Below, piece by piece: positions 10,447 to 56,779 of a stretch of 64,000 nucleotides of DNA (the stretch's first letter is position 1; every line of letters starts with the position of its first letter). Made by a program: the position numbers and the translations under genes. Origin of the DNA: Alphaproteobacteria bacterium (GTDB lineage Bacteria; Pseudomonadota; Alphaproteobacteria; Rs-D84); NCBI GenBank assembly GCA_017503725.1, contig JAFVSL010000011.1, forward strand, positions 71,847 through 135,846, in the 5' to 3' direction. The notes beneath the pieces were generated by a model that had not been told where the DNA came from, made no database searches, and saw only the letters and a program-made list of their open reading frames with translations.

Positions 10447-10723
10447 AATTACCAAAAAGCTTTGTATGTATATGGTCAAATTCTGGTGGATATCCCAAAC
10501 GCGCGGCCAGTTCGAAAAAATGATACGCCGGTATGGCCAATTCCCCACGTTCGTACGCATCAACAAATTCGGCATCTATATGCAGCATTTCTGCGATTTG
10601 TGCAATGGATAAATTTCGGTCACAACGTACAGACTTGATAATATCGCCAAGATATACATAAAAATCCCGCGCGTTATCCGGCACAATAAATTCCAGTGGT
10701 AAATTTTTTATATCGATTGTCAT
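10445..10723 (-). CDS. Small XRE-type helix-turn-helix protein, controlled by a structured leader
   Basis: A 92-aa protein with an XRE/Cro-like helix-turn-helix at about residues 25-80. The segment NLSIAQIAEMLHIDAEFVDAYE is followed by FFELAARLGYPPEF, the pattern of Xre repressors and RodZ-like N-termini. It is probably a cytoplasmic DNA-binding regulator. A ribosome site of eight G residues precedes the ATG by two bases. Directly upstream lies the third member of the leader RNA family, ending in an intrinsic terminator about 20 bases before the start codon. Expression is therefore likely controlled by premature termination. The target genes are unknown; regulation of surface-protein genes sharing the leader is speculation. 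Confidence 0.75.
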   Translation of the reverse strand: MTIDIKNLPLEFIVPDNARDFYVYLGDIIKSVRCDRNLSIAQIAEMLHIDAEFVDAYERGELAIPAYHFFELAARLGYPPEFDHIHTKLFGN

Positions 10724-10744: not shown

Positions 10745-10916
10745 AAAAAAATACCACCTAAAGAAAATTTAAGTGGTTGGAGGTTCAAAGCTATTAAAAC
10801 GAAATAGTCTGATGTATTGATTATTCCATCAGCCTCCAACCAAGTTGGTTGGAGTTTTTGGTCCATAAGACCCGTTTTAGAGGCTTTGAAACCTCATACT
10901 GACAAAACATCAGTAC
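10745..10916 (-). ncRNA. Structured leader RNA, member 3 (upstream of XRE gene)
   Basis: The minus-strand transcript should start near 10916, seven bases after TATAAT (10923-10928); the -35 is weak. In order it holds: hairpin 1 TACTGA/TCAGTA; hairpin 2 GAGG/CCTC; segment a CTCCAACC (10847-10854); segment b GGTTGGAGG (10833-10841); a hairpin CTGATG/CATCAG; segment c CCTCCAACC (10775-10783); and a terminator ACCACTTAAA / TTTAGGTGGT with a T-run (10745-10777). Segment b can pair with a or with c. Segment c shares its last three bases with the terminator arm. The order and the bases after b (GGCTG..GAATAAT) match the members at 29 and 55 kb, although a, b and c differ in sequence. Confidence 0.7.
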
Positions 10917-11012
10917 AATGGGATTATATACCATCAAACAAAAATTACCATAAGAATTTTTTCTTGGTTTATATAAGCAACTTCATATCTCTTGTCTCAT
11001 ATCACATATCTC

Positions 11013-29192: not shown

Positions 29193-29221
29193 TTGCGTTA
29201 ATAAAAAATATCAGTTATAAT
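29193..29221 (+). promoter_or_regulatory. Promoter of leader RNA 1
   Basis: TTGCGT (29193-29198), a 17-base spacer and TATAAT (29216-29221). Sequence similarity to the promoter of leader RNA 2 continues from the -10 into the transcript. Confidence 0.7.
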
Positions 29222-29227
29222 GCATCT

Positions 29228-29480
29228 GTTGTGATCGATGGTCATAATGGGGTGTCGAAACCCGTTCAACAAGCGTCTGGAAAAACGAAAAAACCAATTT
29301 CAGGCGCGCCGTATGGCGTGTTTTTTATTGGGGCCCAGATGAAAAATATCTCCTGAAACCCTTTTCAAGGGGTCAGGAGGGCTGTGAATAATGTGCACTT
29401 ATGTTGCACAAAATAAACACACAATTCTTGTTGATTGTTTCGAACCTCCTGACCACTTCGTTTTGCGTAGTGGTTTTTTA
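29228..29480 (+). ncRNA. Structured leader RNA, member 1 (upstream of cysteine-rich cassette 1)
   Basis: The transcript is predicted from about 29228. It contains: hairpin 1 (GTGAT/GTCAT, weak); hairpin 2 GGG/CCC in GGGGTGTCGAAACCC; a member-specific insert with an internal GC hairpin and T-run (about 29303-29328); segment a CTCCTGA (29350-29356); segment b GGTCAGGAGG (29371-29380); the conserved GGCTGTGAATAAT; hairpin ACAAT/ATTGT; segment c CCTCCTGACC (29445-29454); and terminator ACCACT/AGTGGT (29452-29474) with a T-run. Segment b pairs perfectly with c over ten bases or with a over seven. The b:c form would break the terminator, so the element reads as a transcription attenuator. Confidence 0.75.
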
Positions 29481-29509: not shown

Positions 29510-30025
29510 TTGAAACGTTTATTATTTATTTGTTTTTGTATCGGATTGTCGGCACACCCAGCATACACATACGAGAAGTGCGTAGCCCTTGGGGGGGAAT
29601 ACGGCGCCCCTGAGACAACTTGTACGACCGATTGGTTGTCTGCGCGCGCGGATTGGACCGCAACGTGTACAACCACTTATAGACGCCCGACCCCCGACCC
29701 GGATGATTACTATTCCACAACCGAACAGGTCACCACCCCGTCTTTTACGGTGCGTGGTGTGGCGGGATGTTCCAAAAGTGGTGGCACGGTCGGCACAACA
29801 ACAAAGGATATATTACCAACCCTGGATGATAAAGATAACGCAAATAATGACGAGTGTTGGTGCAAGATGTTGATTCCCGCGGTGTCGCAATGGGTATATT
29901 TAAAAAGTTATACGGGTAATGGCGGAATTGGTTCGTGTGCGAAATCGTGTGCCTATCGCTGTGGCGAGGCGATGACCAACAATGCCACATTTAAAACAAC
30001 AATGTTTTCGGTGTTATCACAATAA
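29510..30025 (+). CDS. Secreted cysteine-rich protein, family A copy 1
   Basis: A 171-aa exported protein of unknown function. A signal peptide of about 20 residues (LLFICFCIGLSAHPAYT) precedes a cysteine-rich mature part. The family pattern is an early KC or EC, then TC, then W..TC, a GVAGCSKSGG block, the core CWCK followed by WVY, and a CAKSCAYRC motif near the C-terminus. The start is TTG with a GGGGG ribosome site. It lies 30 bases after the terminator of leader RNA 1, so expression depends on read-through. Parts of it are nearly identical at DNA level to the next gene, indicating recent duplication or gene conversion. The cysteines suggest disulfides in periplasm or outside the cell. 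Confidence 0.75.
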   Translation: MKRLLFICFCIGLSAHPAYTYEKCVALGGEYGAPETTCTTDWLSARADWTATCTTTYRRPTPDPDDYYSTTEQVTTPSFTVRGVAGCSKSGGTVGTTTKDILPTLDDKDNANNDECWCKMLIPAVSQWVYLKSYTGNGGIGSCAKSCAYRCGEAMTNNATFKTTMFSVLSQ

Positions 30026-55235: not shown

Positions 55236-55264
55236 TTGAACAAAGAAAAACAATTAGTTATAAT
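55236..55264 (+). promoter_or_regulatory. Promoter of leader RNA 2
   Basis: TTGAAC (55236-55241), a 17-base spacer and TATAAT (55259-55264). The -10 and following bases match those of leader RNA 1. Confidence 0.7.
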
Positions 55265-55270
55265 GCATAT

Positions 55271-55483
55271 GTTATGGCGGTTTGCCATAATGGGGTGTGA
55301 CTACCCGTGCATAGGCATCGAAATATAAGACTGCGCCACAGGTTGGTGTGTGTTTGTGTTTTGATGAAATTGAACTCCTGAACATTTAGTGTCAGGGGGG
55401 CTGTGAATATATCGAATAAACAGCACAATTCCTATGATTGTAGTCAACCTCCTGACCACTCGTGAATACGCGTGGTTTTTGTT
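55271..55483 (+). ncRNA. Structured leader RNA, member 2 (upstream of EGF-like gene)
   Basis: Predicted from about 55271. Hairpin 1 TTATGGC/GCCATAA (seven pairs); hairpin 2 GGG/CCC in GGGGTGTGACTACCC; segment a CTCCTGA (55375-55381); segment b GTCAGGGGGG (55391-55400); the conserved GGCTGTGAATA; hairpin ACAAT/ATTGT; segment c CCTCCTGAC (55448-55456); and terminator ACCAC/GTGGT (55455-55476) followed by TTTTTGTTTTTTT. Compared with member 1, the change from A to G in b keeps both pairings as G.U. The gene starts 25 bases after the terminator at ATG 55508 behind GGGGG. Confidence 0.75.
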
Positions 55484-55507: not shown

Positions 55508-56779
55508 ATGAAAGGCTATATCAAATGCTTAATTATGTGTGTTGCACTGGTGCCCACGCCATCAGTTGCCGTACTGTTTGCTGATGGCGAATTATGCCTT
55601 AATTCAGGGCAGTGTGAATCGGGTGTATGCCAGCGCAATGACGGTACGTCGCTTGCAAGATGTGCGCCAAAGGCAAAATTGGGCGAAGCATGTTCCGATT
55701 TTACGTTGTATAGTGTTTACTATGTTGCGCCTTGCGATGCGGACTTGCAGTGCGTCAATTTAACCTGGACGGGCGAAGAAGGCGAAGCAAAAAATGGCAT
55801 ATGTATTCGGACGGGGGCCAATTTTGCCGTTGGTGATTTGTGTATAAATAACGCGCAATGCGAATCAAAATCCTGTGTTATACAATCTGAAACGGATAAA
55901 ACCGGCGTTTGTACTGCGTTGGCGGACGAAAATGAACCGTGCGACTATATCGCTATGGATCCAGAGTTGTATATAAAATACCCAAAATGTGAACGCGGTC
56001 TAAGTTGCAGGCCGATTGAGGAGGCCGAACATATGTATAGTTGCGTAGATCTTGGTGGTGCTAGTTCTGGGACGACTGCAGTGGTTCCCACCGGTACCCT
56101 GCCCAATGGCGAGCCGTGTCTATACAGCACACAATGCACGTCCGGCGTTTGTCTGAACAAAGGTAATACCGATGCGGCATATTGTGCCCCGCGCGCCAGT
56201 GTTCATGGTCAGCAATGCTCATACGAAACCACATCGGGAATTTACATTGATCGTCCAATTTGTGCATCAAACCTTAGATGCGTCCGGCCAACAAATTCAA
56301 CTGCAACATATGGGTGGTGTTGGGATTCTGCAAACATTCCTAGCGAATCTTATTTGGTGGACGCGGTTGTTGGCTGGGGCAATGTTGATGGCGCGTACCA
56401 GGGCGGAACGCGAAATGCTGGCCCCAGCGGATCTGGTATTATAAATTATCGTTGTGCCGCCGGTTATTATGGGATAAATCCTGATGTCGGCTCGCGCAGC
56501 AAATCGGGGTGCACAGCCTGTCCGTCTAATGGTATTTGCGACCTGGGCGATAATGAAATATTTGATTGTAAAATTGGATACTATCGATCGGGTAATCAGT
56601 GTGTTCGTTGTCCTGATATTGTCAGCGGTACGCCTGGTACTACGGCATCTGAAACGTCGTGGGGTGCTTCATTGGATCGTAATAAACTGGGGATTGAAAA
56701 GTGCTATGCGCCTGCTGTTTCGTACACCGATAATGTCGGAATATTTGAAATCACCCAAGACATTGCGTGTTATTATTAA
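55508..56779 (+). CDS. Secreted cysteine-rich protein with EGF/Dickkopf-like repeats
   Basis: A 423-aa exported protein under control of leader RNA 2. The signal peptide is followed by three repeats of the form GE.CLNS.QC.SG.C (near residues 25, 115 and 200), each with an ...ACS / PC.... second half, giving about eight cysteines per module. The C-terminal third (about 305-423) has a further cysteine set (CAAGYYG, CTACPSNG, CDLGDN, CVRCPD) like EGF or furin-like repeats. The pattern resembles animal Dickkopf/EGF modules, but such repeats also occur in bacterial surface proteins. There is no lipobox; it is probably secreted. The function is unknown. Confidence 0.74.
   Translation: MKGYIKCLIMCVALVPTPSVAVLFADGELCLNSGQCESGVCQRNDGTSLARCAPKAKLGEACSDFTLYSVYYVAPCDADLQCVNLTWTGEEGEAKNGICIRTGANFAVGDLCINNAQCESKSCVIQSETDKTGVCTALADENEPCDYIAMDPELYIKYPKCERGLSCRPIEEAEHMYSCVDLGGASSGTTAVVPTGTLPNGEPCLYSTQCTSGVCLNKGNTDAAYCAPRASVHGQQCSYETTSGIYIDRPICASNLRCVRPTNSTATYGWCWDSANIPSESYLVDAVVGWGNVDGAYQGGTRNAGPSGSGIINYRCAAGYYGINPDVGSRSKSGCTACPSNGICDLGDNEIFDCKIGYYRSGNQCVRCPDIVSGTPGTTASETSWGASLDRNKLGIEKCYAPAVSYTDNVGIFEITQDIACYY

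Follow-up and report, generated by a model that had tools for sequence, protein, structure and literature searches.

The window, by which we mean the whole stretch of 64,000 nucleotides analyzed, contains three leader RNA elements, two on the forward strand and one on the reverse strand, each of which precedes an open reading frame (ORF; Table 1). A covariance model of the leader (R1, see below) matched the window at exactly these three sites, where the original prediction had placed three leaders of shared design. Read on its own strand, each site comprised, as predicted, a TATAAT hexamer, which ended 7 bases 5′ of the first hairpin, two small hairpins, segment a, segment b, a hairpin with the conserved GGCTG..GAATA motif (GGCTGATGGAATA in its place in member 3), a further hairpin, segment c, a T-run terminator, and the ORF. 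Segment b could pair either with a or with c, again as predicted, and the terminator arm overlapped c by 3–4 nt in the three members. The fold of member 1 had a z value of −5.9. The ORF behind member 1 matched no Pfam family at E ≤ 0.001. The ORF behind member 2 carried three colipase N-terminal-like stretches (PF01114, E 1.7e-20), which is odd for a bacterium.

Table 1. Positions of the three leaders, their parts, and the ORFs that follow them in the window (R1, covariance model described in the text)
Feature	Position	Strand	Details
Member 1 promoter	29193..29221	+	−35 TTGCGT 29193-29198, 17 bases, −10 TATAAT 29216-29221
Member 1 leader RNA, first hairpin to terminator T-run	29227..29479	+	R1 match 29227-29478, 161.5 bits
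Member 1 a1	29255..29261	+	loop of hairpin 29249-29263; complement is a′ 29437-29443
Member 1 b1	29266..29273	+	8 bp with b′ 29427-29434
Member 1 segment a	29350..29356	+	pairs with b
Member 1 segment b, 5′ strand of outer stem	29371..29380	+	10 bp with c
Member 1 hairpin, conserved GAATA/AATAA internal loop	29382..29422	+	
Member 1 b′	29427..29434	+	loop of hairpin 29421-29438
Member 1 a′	29437..29443	+	pairs with a1
Member 1 segment c, 3′ strand of outer stem	29445..29454	+	pairs with b
Member 1 intrinsic terminator, overlapping c	29452..29479	+	−11.0 kcal/mol, T6
ORF led by member 1	29510..30022	+	171 aa, signal peptide (crude test), 11 Cys, TTG start
Member 2 −10 TATAAT	55259..55264	+	
Member 2 leader RNA	55270..55480	+	R1 match 55270-55480, 174.3 bits
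Member 2 a1	55298..55304	+	pairs with a′ 55440-55446
Member 2 b1	55310..55315	+	pairs with b′ 55431-55436
Member 2 segment a	55375..55381	+	
Member 2 segment b	55391..55399	+	9 bp with c, one G-U
Member 2 b′	55431..55436	+	pairs with b1
Member 2 a′	55440..55446	+	pairs with a1
Member 2 segment c	55448..55456	+	pairs with b
Member 2 terminator	55455..55480	+	−10.4 kcal/mol, T5
ORF led by member 2	55508..56776	+	423 aa, secreted (crude test), 35 Cys
Member 3 −10 TATAAT	10923..10928	-	
Member 3 leader RNA	10745..10917	-	R1 match 10749-10917, 98.2 bits; T-run to 10745
Member 3 a1	10883..10890	-	pairs with a′ 10784-10791
Member 3 b1	10873..10879	-	pairs with b′ 10795-10801
Member 3 segment a	10847..10854	-	
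Member 3 segment b	10833..10842	-	10 bp with c
Member 3 b′	10795..10801	-	pairs with b1
Member 3 a′	10784..10791	-	pairs with a1
Member 3 segment c	10774..10783	-	pairs with b
Member 3 terminator	10745..10777	-	−10.7 kcal/mol, T7
ORF led by member 3	10448..10723	-	92 aa, HTH_3 (XRE-type), E 1.5e-6

The host of the window probably belongs to the Candidatus Enterousia group of the order Rs-D84 and is probably gut-dwelling. A pattern scan returned at least 80 stretches, which came from MAGs of uncultured proteobacteria and for the most part had Alphaproteobacteria in the title; deer, goat, sheep, and yak gut titles and three rows of Candidatus Enterousia were among the matches listed, and the order of the host is assigned from these titles. 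Rs-D84, including Enterousia, consists of reduced-genome gut bacteria that are apparently obligate symbionts or parasites (PMC12306168). Searching the source genome (0.998 Mb, 13 contigs) as DNA with member 1 yielded 28 matches. R1, built from 21 of the 22 members then known in this genome, gave 38 matches there at E ≤ 1e-3, with 34 of them below 1e-9, and matched 44 of 59 related genomes, including 34 of 35 of the same genus (the source genome counted), with 1 to at least 40 matches per positive genome. A shorter core model (R2), made from 61 diverse members and lacking the a1:a′ and b1:b′ helices in its structure, matched at least 179 of 201 genomes and at least 19 of 23 genera of the order when the best 16 candidates per genome were considered. 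The expectation of the original prediction that a covariance search of related genomes would bring up more members was thus borne out. R2 matched 21 of 385 genomes in a sample of the class, 17 of these outside the order, and 2 of 398 in a sample of the phylum; both of the latter belonged to the source genus, so the terminator-bearing branch was seen in Alphaproteobacteria only.

Several loci differed in arrangement. Tandem arrays of two or three leaders occurred at L191 5566-6152, L179 2340-3022, L204 2941-3849, and L303 1216-1623, and two neighboring leaders of the L191 array had one common address (a1/b1, see below). One viral contig (L259 1250-13161) had genes for a tail sheath and a tape measure protein and, about 3 kb further on, a family leader before a secreted ORF. 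In the source genome, L091, L092, and L093 (C7:90165, C1:15759, and C9:22437) contained weak, longer leader variants with a different b and hairpin.

The genes behind the leaders were diverse. A signal peptide was detected by the crude test in 126 of 193 downstream ORFs, repeats included, and by eye many of the remaining ORFs encoded small HTH-like proteins. Pfam scanning covered 115 of the 180 distinct downstream ORFs; six matched HTH_3, and at least 74 of the 115 had no match at E ≤ 0.001. Behind the R2 matches outside the order, we found outer-membrane barrels, a PilS-type pilin, and a glycosyltransferase (10 of 14 ORFs scanned) as well as ORFs that looked lipoprotein-like by eye.

All the pieces named in the original description were present in the leaders, but two long-range helices had been overlooked. 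One, a1:a′, joins the loop of the second hairpin to the bases just 5′ of c; the other, b1:b′, joins the segment after the second hairpin to the loop of the hairpin before c. The layout hence begins with the first hairpin, a second hairpin whose loop contains a1, and b1, and continues with an outer stem b:c that encloses two hairpins with b′ and a′. In an alignment of 101 members, which leans toward b1:b′ because R1 included this helix but not the other three, a1:a′, b1:b′, b:c, and the hairpin before c jointly had standard pairs in 97.2% of cells (98.8% for a1:a′), a value reached by 0 of 500 shuffles. Two-sided changes occurred somewhere in 20 of the 24 pairs and amounted to 596 cells, and pairing fell to 38.6–47.7% when the partner was slid by one to three columns. 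These values strongly support the earlier claim of covariation among a, b, and c.

Two further tests were independent of the b1:b′ helix in R1. For the first, 207 matches were reduced to 199 distinct ones, 160 of which could be parsed; the other 39 were off-pattern, many of them short forms leading HTH genes. With G-U allowed and partners taken without a model alignment, 152 of the 160 parsed members had every one of the five a1:a′ positions paired, with 50 distinct combinations in the set, and b1:b′ formed a run of at least six Watson–Crick pairs in 138 of the 160 versus about 3% after shuffling. As MAFFT misplaced some b1 segments, the b1 counts rest on the 101-member alignment and the 160-member parse. 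The second test used narrower, non-overlapping a1 and b1 windows outside the order (16 of the 17 R2-positive genomes examined), where both runs reached at least five pairs in 13 of 17 R2 matches (16 loci) versus 21 of 272 swapped pairings. An unpaired AATA/AATA loop was also conserved, even in very distant members. The source genome has many leader copies before paralogous secreted proteins, as would be expected if promoter-leader blocks had simply been copied and kept by gene duplication, without regulation. That explanation is contradicted by compensatory change in all five helices counted, and the downstream genes are unrelated; we regard it as extremely improbable.

We then surveyed the switch region in 195 of the 199 distinct members. 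The b:c helix was 9–11 bp long in 187 of the 195 (G-U allowed). There were 43 b strings, some differing by trimmed length alone, with TCAGGAGG and GTTGGAGG as the main forms; rarer strings such as GCAGGAGG, TCGGGAGG, and GTTGGATG still matched c. We dropped the notion that b and c are mere Shine–Dalgarno (SD) and anti-SD mimics, as some members keep b:c without GGAGG. A T-run terminator followed c in 187 of the 195 members, and its stem overlapped c by 3–5 nt in 167 of these 187. Median energies were −12.2 kcal/mol for the a:b hairpin, −17.0 for the b:c duplex (without loop cost), and −10.8 for the terminator, making a:b plus terminator and b:c close competitors on paper. In the leaders, a terminator stands before the gene and is mutually exclusive with a covarying alternative helix; as far as sequence can tell, their reading as attenuators is well supported.

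A −10 element within one mismatch was present at the expected spot in 143 of 167 copies from other genomes versus 56 of 501 control windows. Among the source-genome copies outside R1, 13 of 16 had it as well; in the 21 members of R1 the −10 distance is given by construction, the model start having been set from TATAAT. Between b1 and a, the variable hairpin contained a second terminator-like T-run hairpin, by a terminator rule stricter than that of the 195-member survey, in 7 of 33 source-genome copies, including L012, L011, L013, and L010, and in 35 of 127 others.

In Rfam, a tRNA was the sole match at gathering score in the 64 kb, and no family was found among the window leaders. A permissive scan of member 1 returned Trp_leader, PyrR, and other names at chance level, which we rejected. 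Further members, covariation, and the lack of an Rfam assignment were three of the points on which the original prediction had staked itself, and on none of these three did the outcome go against it. Its statement that no known class has this form was not supported, because phage P1 C4, taken together with a1/b1, shows this layout and the 3′ half of the leaders is related to sRNA-Xcc1 (RF02221).

The order of elements in the P1 record is a1, b1, c4, a2, b2, icd. In the P1 sequence, a1 sits in a hairpin loop and is followed by b1, a T-run hairpin, and then c4, which consists of an outer stem, a TTCG hairpin, a hairpin whose loop holds b′, and a′ ahead of the closing strand. The a1 and b1 sites are matched by a′ and b′ of c4, and the Rfam C4 and c4-a1b1 models match P1 at that region. 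The leaders share with C4 of P1/P7 and c4-a1b1 (RF01695 and RF03163, clan CL00128) the order a1, b1, outer stem, hairpin, b′ hairpin, a′; in them, too, an outer stem surrounds two hairpins, with b′ in the second loop and a′ before the closing strand, and upstream a1/b1 are complementary to a′/b′. Further common traits are a first hairpin that is followed by one with a1 in its loop, CC(A) after the outer stem, and address specificity, as described for C4 in PMC5320573. Unlike C4, the leaders have an intrinsic terminator fused to the outer stem and lack a2/b2 at the ribosome site; their conserved hairpin carries AATA/AATA instead of TTCG, and they precede chromosomal secreted-protein and HTH genes instead of icd/ant.

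Sequence searches gave no direct match between the two. The Rfam C4 and c4-2 models returned nothing in the source genome at E ≤ 1, an absence that these searches leave unproven because c4-2 matched 0 control genomes and C4 matched one, below cut-off; in the reverse direction, R2 did not find c4 in P1. The tie of the leaders to C4 proper is therefore one of layout and not of sequence.

According to PMC5320573, a′ of C4 confers specificity and b′ partly covers the ribosome site. The a2/b2 copies flanking the ribosome site showed no excess over swapped addresses in the leaders of the source genome (n=32) or of other genomes (n=124); in the source genome, a2 scored 4.59 against 4.48 swapped and b2 4.72 against 4.88 swapped. 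By a loose rule (at least 6 bp each within 30 nt) that had no swapped control of its own, 6 of 157 Rs-D84 copies had a2/b2. These figures bear on translational control, in which c (CCUCC..) would mask the SD site as C4 masks a2/b2. Segment c is indeed able to pair with GGAGG or GGGGG near start codons, a complementarity that is trivial because c contains CCUCC. With a terminator lying between c and the ribosome site in 187 of 195 members and a2/b2 at the ribosome site not exceeding chance, we consider this mode of control highly improbable.

C4 also raises the matter of processing, since the outer stem of pre-C4 is described as being cut at its 5′ end by RNase P and the C4-like RNAs of Acinetobacter baumannii look processed (PMC5320573). 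The leader might serve mainly as the source of an sRNA, processed by RNase P at an outer stem with ACCA behind it, that acts on other mRNAs, with the downstream gene controlled by nothing but ordinary read-through. RNase P RNA was found in the source genome, and the bases from c onward contained ACCA in 99 of 160 members and another RCC in 60 more. The ACCA, however, doubles as a terminator arm, the cut site would be hidden by a:b, and the sole covarying partners found for a′/b′ were a1/b1 of the same leader; we judge this reading to be quite unlikely.

Next, we considered the relation to sRNA-Xcc1. L309, an R2-found locus ahead of a KilA-N gene in a 4.3-Mb alphaproteobacterium, scored 66.2 bits against RF02221 (cut-off 53), and its alignment equated the outer stem of the RF02221 model with b:c. 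No locus of the source genome reached the cut-off of 53 bits (best 39.2 bits, E 8.8e-6). There were four matches below it, the best two of which (E 8.8e-6 and 1.9e-4) lay on R1 matches, the best overlapping the weak R1 match of the leader in L092; at E ≤ 1, 2 of 14 unrelated control genomes also matched, below cut-off. R2 at E < 0.01 in turn found 6 of 30 RF02221 loci and missed 24. Of 398 genomes sampled from the phylum, 39 had an RF02221 match above cut-off.

Of 30 RF02221 loci (L314-L343), 23 had a1/b1 upstream, outside the Rfam model, compared with 31 of 870 swapped pairings. In 13 of the 30, the ribosome site of the following gene was accompanied by a2/b2, compared with 16 of 870 swapped pairings. 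Among 10 of the 28 ORFs behind them, chosen by eye, seven encoded antirepressor-type proteins (Bro-N, KilA-N, P22_AR_N, or pRha) and two SymE; one matched no family. This suggests that sRNA-Xcc1, which Rfam types as an sRNA gene, forms the central part of a C4-type unit that has a1/b1 upstream and, at part of the loci, a2/b2 at the ribosome site. Despite its a1/b1 and a2/b2, sRNA-Xcc1 stands outside the Rfam C4 clan CL00128. A terminator-like hairpin preceded the stem in 19 of the 30 loci, and a similar T-run hairpin was seen by eye in P1. PMC12189769 gives C4 and sRNA-Xcc1 side by side as separate families, and our literature search, which covered sources other than the 2011 sRNA-Xcc1 paper, found none that ties sRNA-Xcc1 to C4 or describes the present leaders.

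The leaders resemble sRNA-Xcc1 in the b:c outer stem, the AAUA..GAAUA hairpin, the b′ hairpin, and a′, with weak reciprocal model matches. They differ in the target: a2/b2 were present in 13 of 30 sRNA-Xcc1 loci and showed no excess in the Rs-D84 leaders, whereas under one rule for both sets a terminator followed the stem in 148 of 158 Rs-D84 copies (out of the 160 parsed) and in 2 of 30 RF02221 loci. By nearly the same rule, a terminator was present in 14 of the 17 R2 matches outside the order. Since a2/b2 and the Rfam cut-offs were tested and the leaders fell short on both, we do not file them under either Rfam family. The most fitting description is that of a chromosomal branch, equipped with a terminator, of the C4/sRNA-Xcc1 kind of antisense leader and not that of a stand-alone new class. 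From these sequence comparisons, we consider it rather likely that the leaders have the layout of C4 with a1/b1, that a terminator replaces the ribosome-site target, and that they are attenuators run by the pairing of their own halves.

Other phage-type RNAs provide partial parallels. In the account of phage P4 in PMC4825925, the CI RNA, a processed leader RNA, pairs with an upstream site (seqA) of the same leader as well as with a downstream site, causing premature termination; P4, compared here by description only, differs from the leaders in being a phage locus with a second site, seqC. The same source describes IsrK of Salmonella Gifsy-1 (RF01394) as a terminated leader that acts in trans on the read-through mRNA from the same promoter, there on orf45 translation, unlike the present leaders. 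The isrK model reached only 11.8 bits in the window. It overlapped the P1 a1/b1 region (L346 331-412) with 35.1 bits, below its cut-off of 50. A further parallel is offered by the A. baumannii C4-like Group 1 sRNAs, 21 similar C4-related RNAs with varied a′ loops in one chromosome, which PMC5320573 describes as sRNAs and not as terminator leaders before genes.

The a1/b1 addresses were distinct in all 33 source-genome copies examined. Pairing of at least 6 bp for b and 4 of 5 for a was seen in 28 of 33 own combinations but in only 7 of 1056 foreign ones. In 48 copy pairs whose 36-base flanks were at least 90% identical (mean 98.3%; 15 of the 33 copies, one sequence class), identity was 30.0% in the b′ loop (5 bases), 62.9% in a′, and 72.8% in c plus terminator. 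Change among near-identical copies is thus concentrated in the address. Such divergence would be expected where cross-talk among the copies does harm, as in heteroimmunity; rapid drift of a freely exchangeable paired loop, with no trans action, would also account for private addresses. In one copy, L018 2006-2232 on the reverse strand (C3:97105-97331 of the source genome), a1 (CAGAA) was mismatched to a′ (TAGTC), and this copy looks like a natural recombinant of two leaders.

The same helices could be those of a metabolite or second-messenger riboswitch, with a1:a′ and b1:b′ forming a double-pseudoknot aptamer round the AATA/AATA loop and a ligand setting a:b versus b:c. Some signalling riboswitches occur in many copies per genome before secreted, surface, and regulator genes, as do the leaders; the unpaired loop conserved in very distant members and the terminator platform would suit a ligand-sensing RNA as well. 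Address helices that differ in 33 of 33 copies and concentrate change would, however, be unusual for an aptamer core, P1 C4, an antisense system, has the same layout, and at some sRNA-Xcc1 loci copies of the target lie at the ribosome site. A riboswitch is, in our estimation, unlikely, if still worth bearing in mind.

Most likely, a phage-type antisense module has been turned into an attenuator for secreted-protein and small HTH genes, and early termination is predicted to decide the expression of secreted-protein and regulator genes. In the antisense attenuator that we favor, the leader would be transcribed from its own promoter and a:b would form first. While a:b persists, c would be free, the terminator would form, and the gene would be off; if c displaces a from b, the C4-type fold would close and take up the terminator arm, allowing read-through and turning the gene on. 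Pairing of a1/b1 with a′/b′ would bias this choice, and termination is the likelier outcome because C4 and P4 CI are repressors. Such pairing need not oppose b:c, given that C4 in its mature form is described as folded and as pairing via its loops. The partner of a1/b1 could be the nascent leader itself or another copy from that gene, either terminated or processed, and the balance may be shifted by an RNA or by a protein or ligand at the conserved AATA/AATA loop. As the addresses of the copies differ, the feedback would be private to each gene. More tentatively, and with some doubt on our part, each terminated or processed leader may silence only its own gene in trans via its private a′/b′ address, which would amount to 30 or more orthogonal silencers.

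These comparisons connect the C4 immunity RNA of phage P1 with a leader RNA that is abundant in uncultured bacteria and had been an orphan. The antisense attenuator would show that a phage lysogeny switch has been domesticated many times over in one genome. With hypervariable addresses, self-silencing in trans is directly testable, and the leaders may offer a natural source of orthogonal RNA regulators. If such self-silencing is real, a phage immunity RNA would have given rise, in reduced-genome Alphaproteobacteria, to dozens of independent RNA feedback channels over secreted and surface proteins in a tiny symbiont genome.
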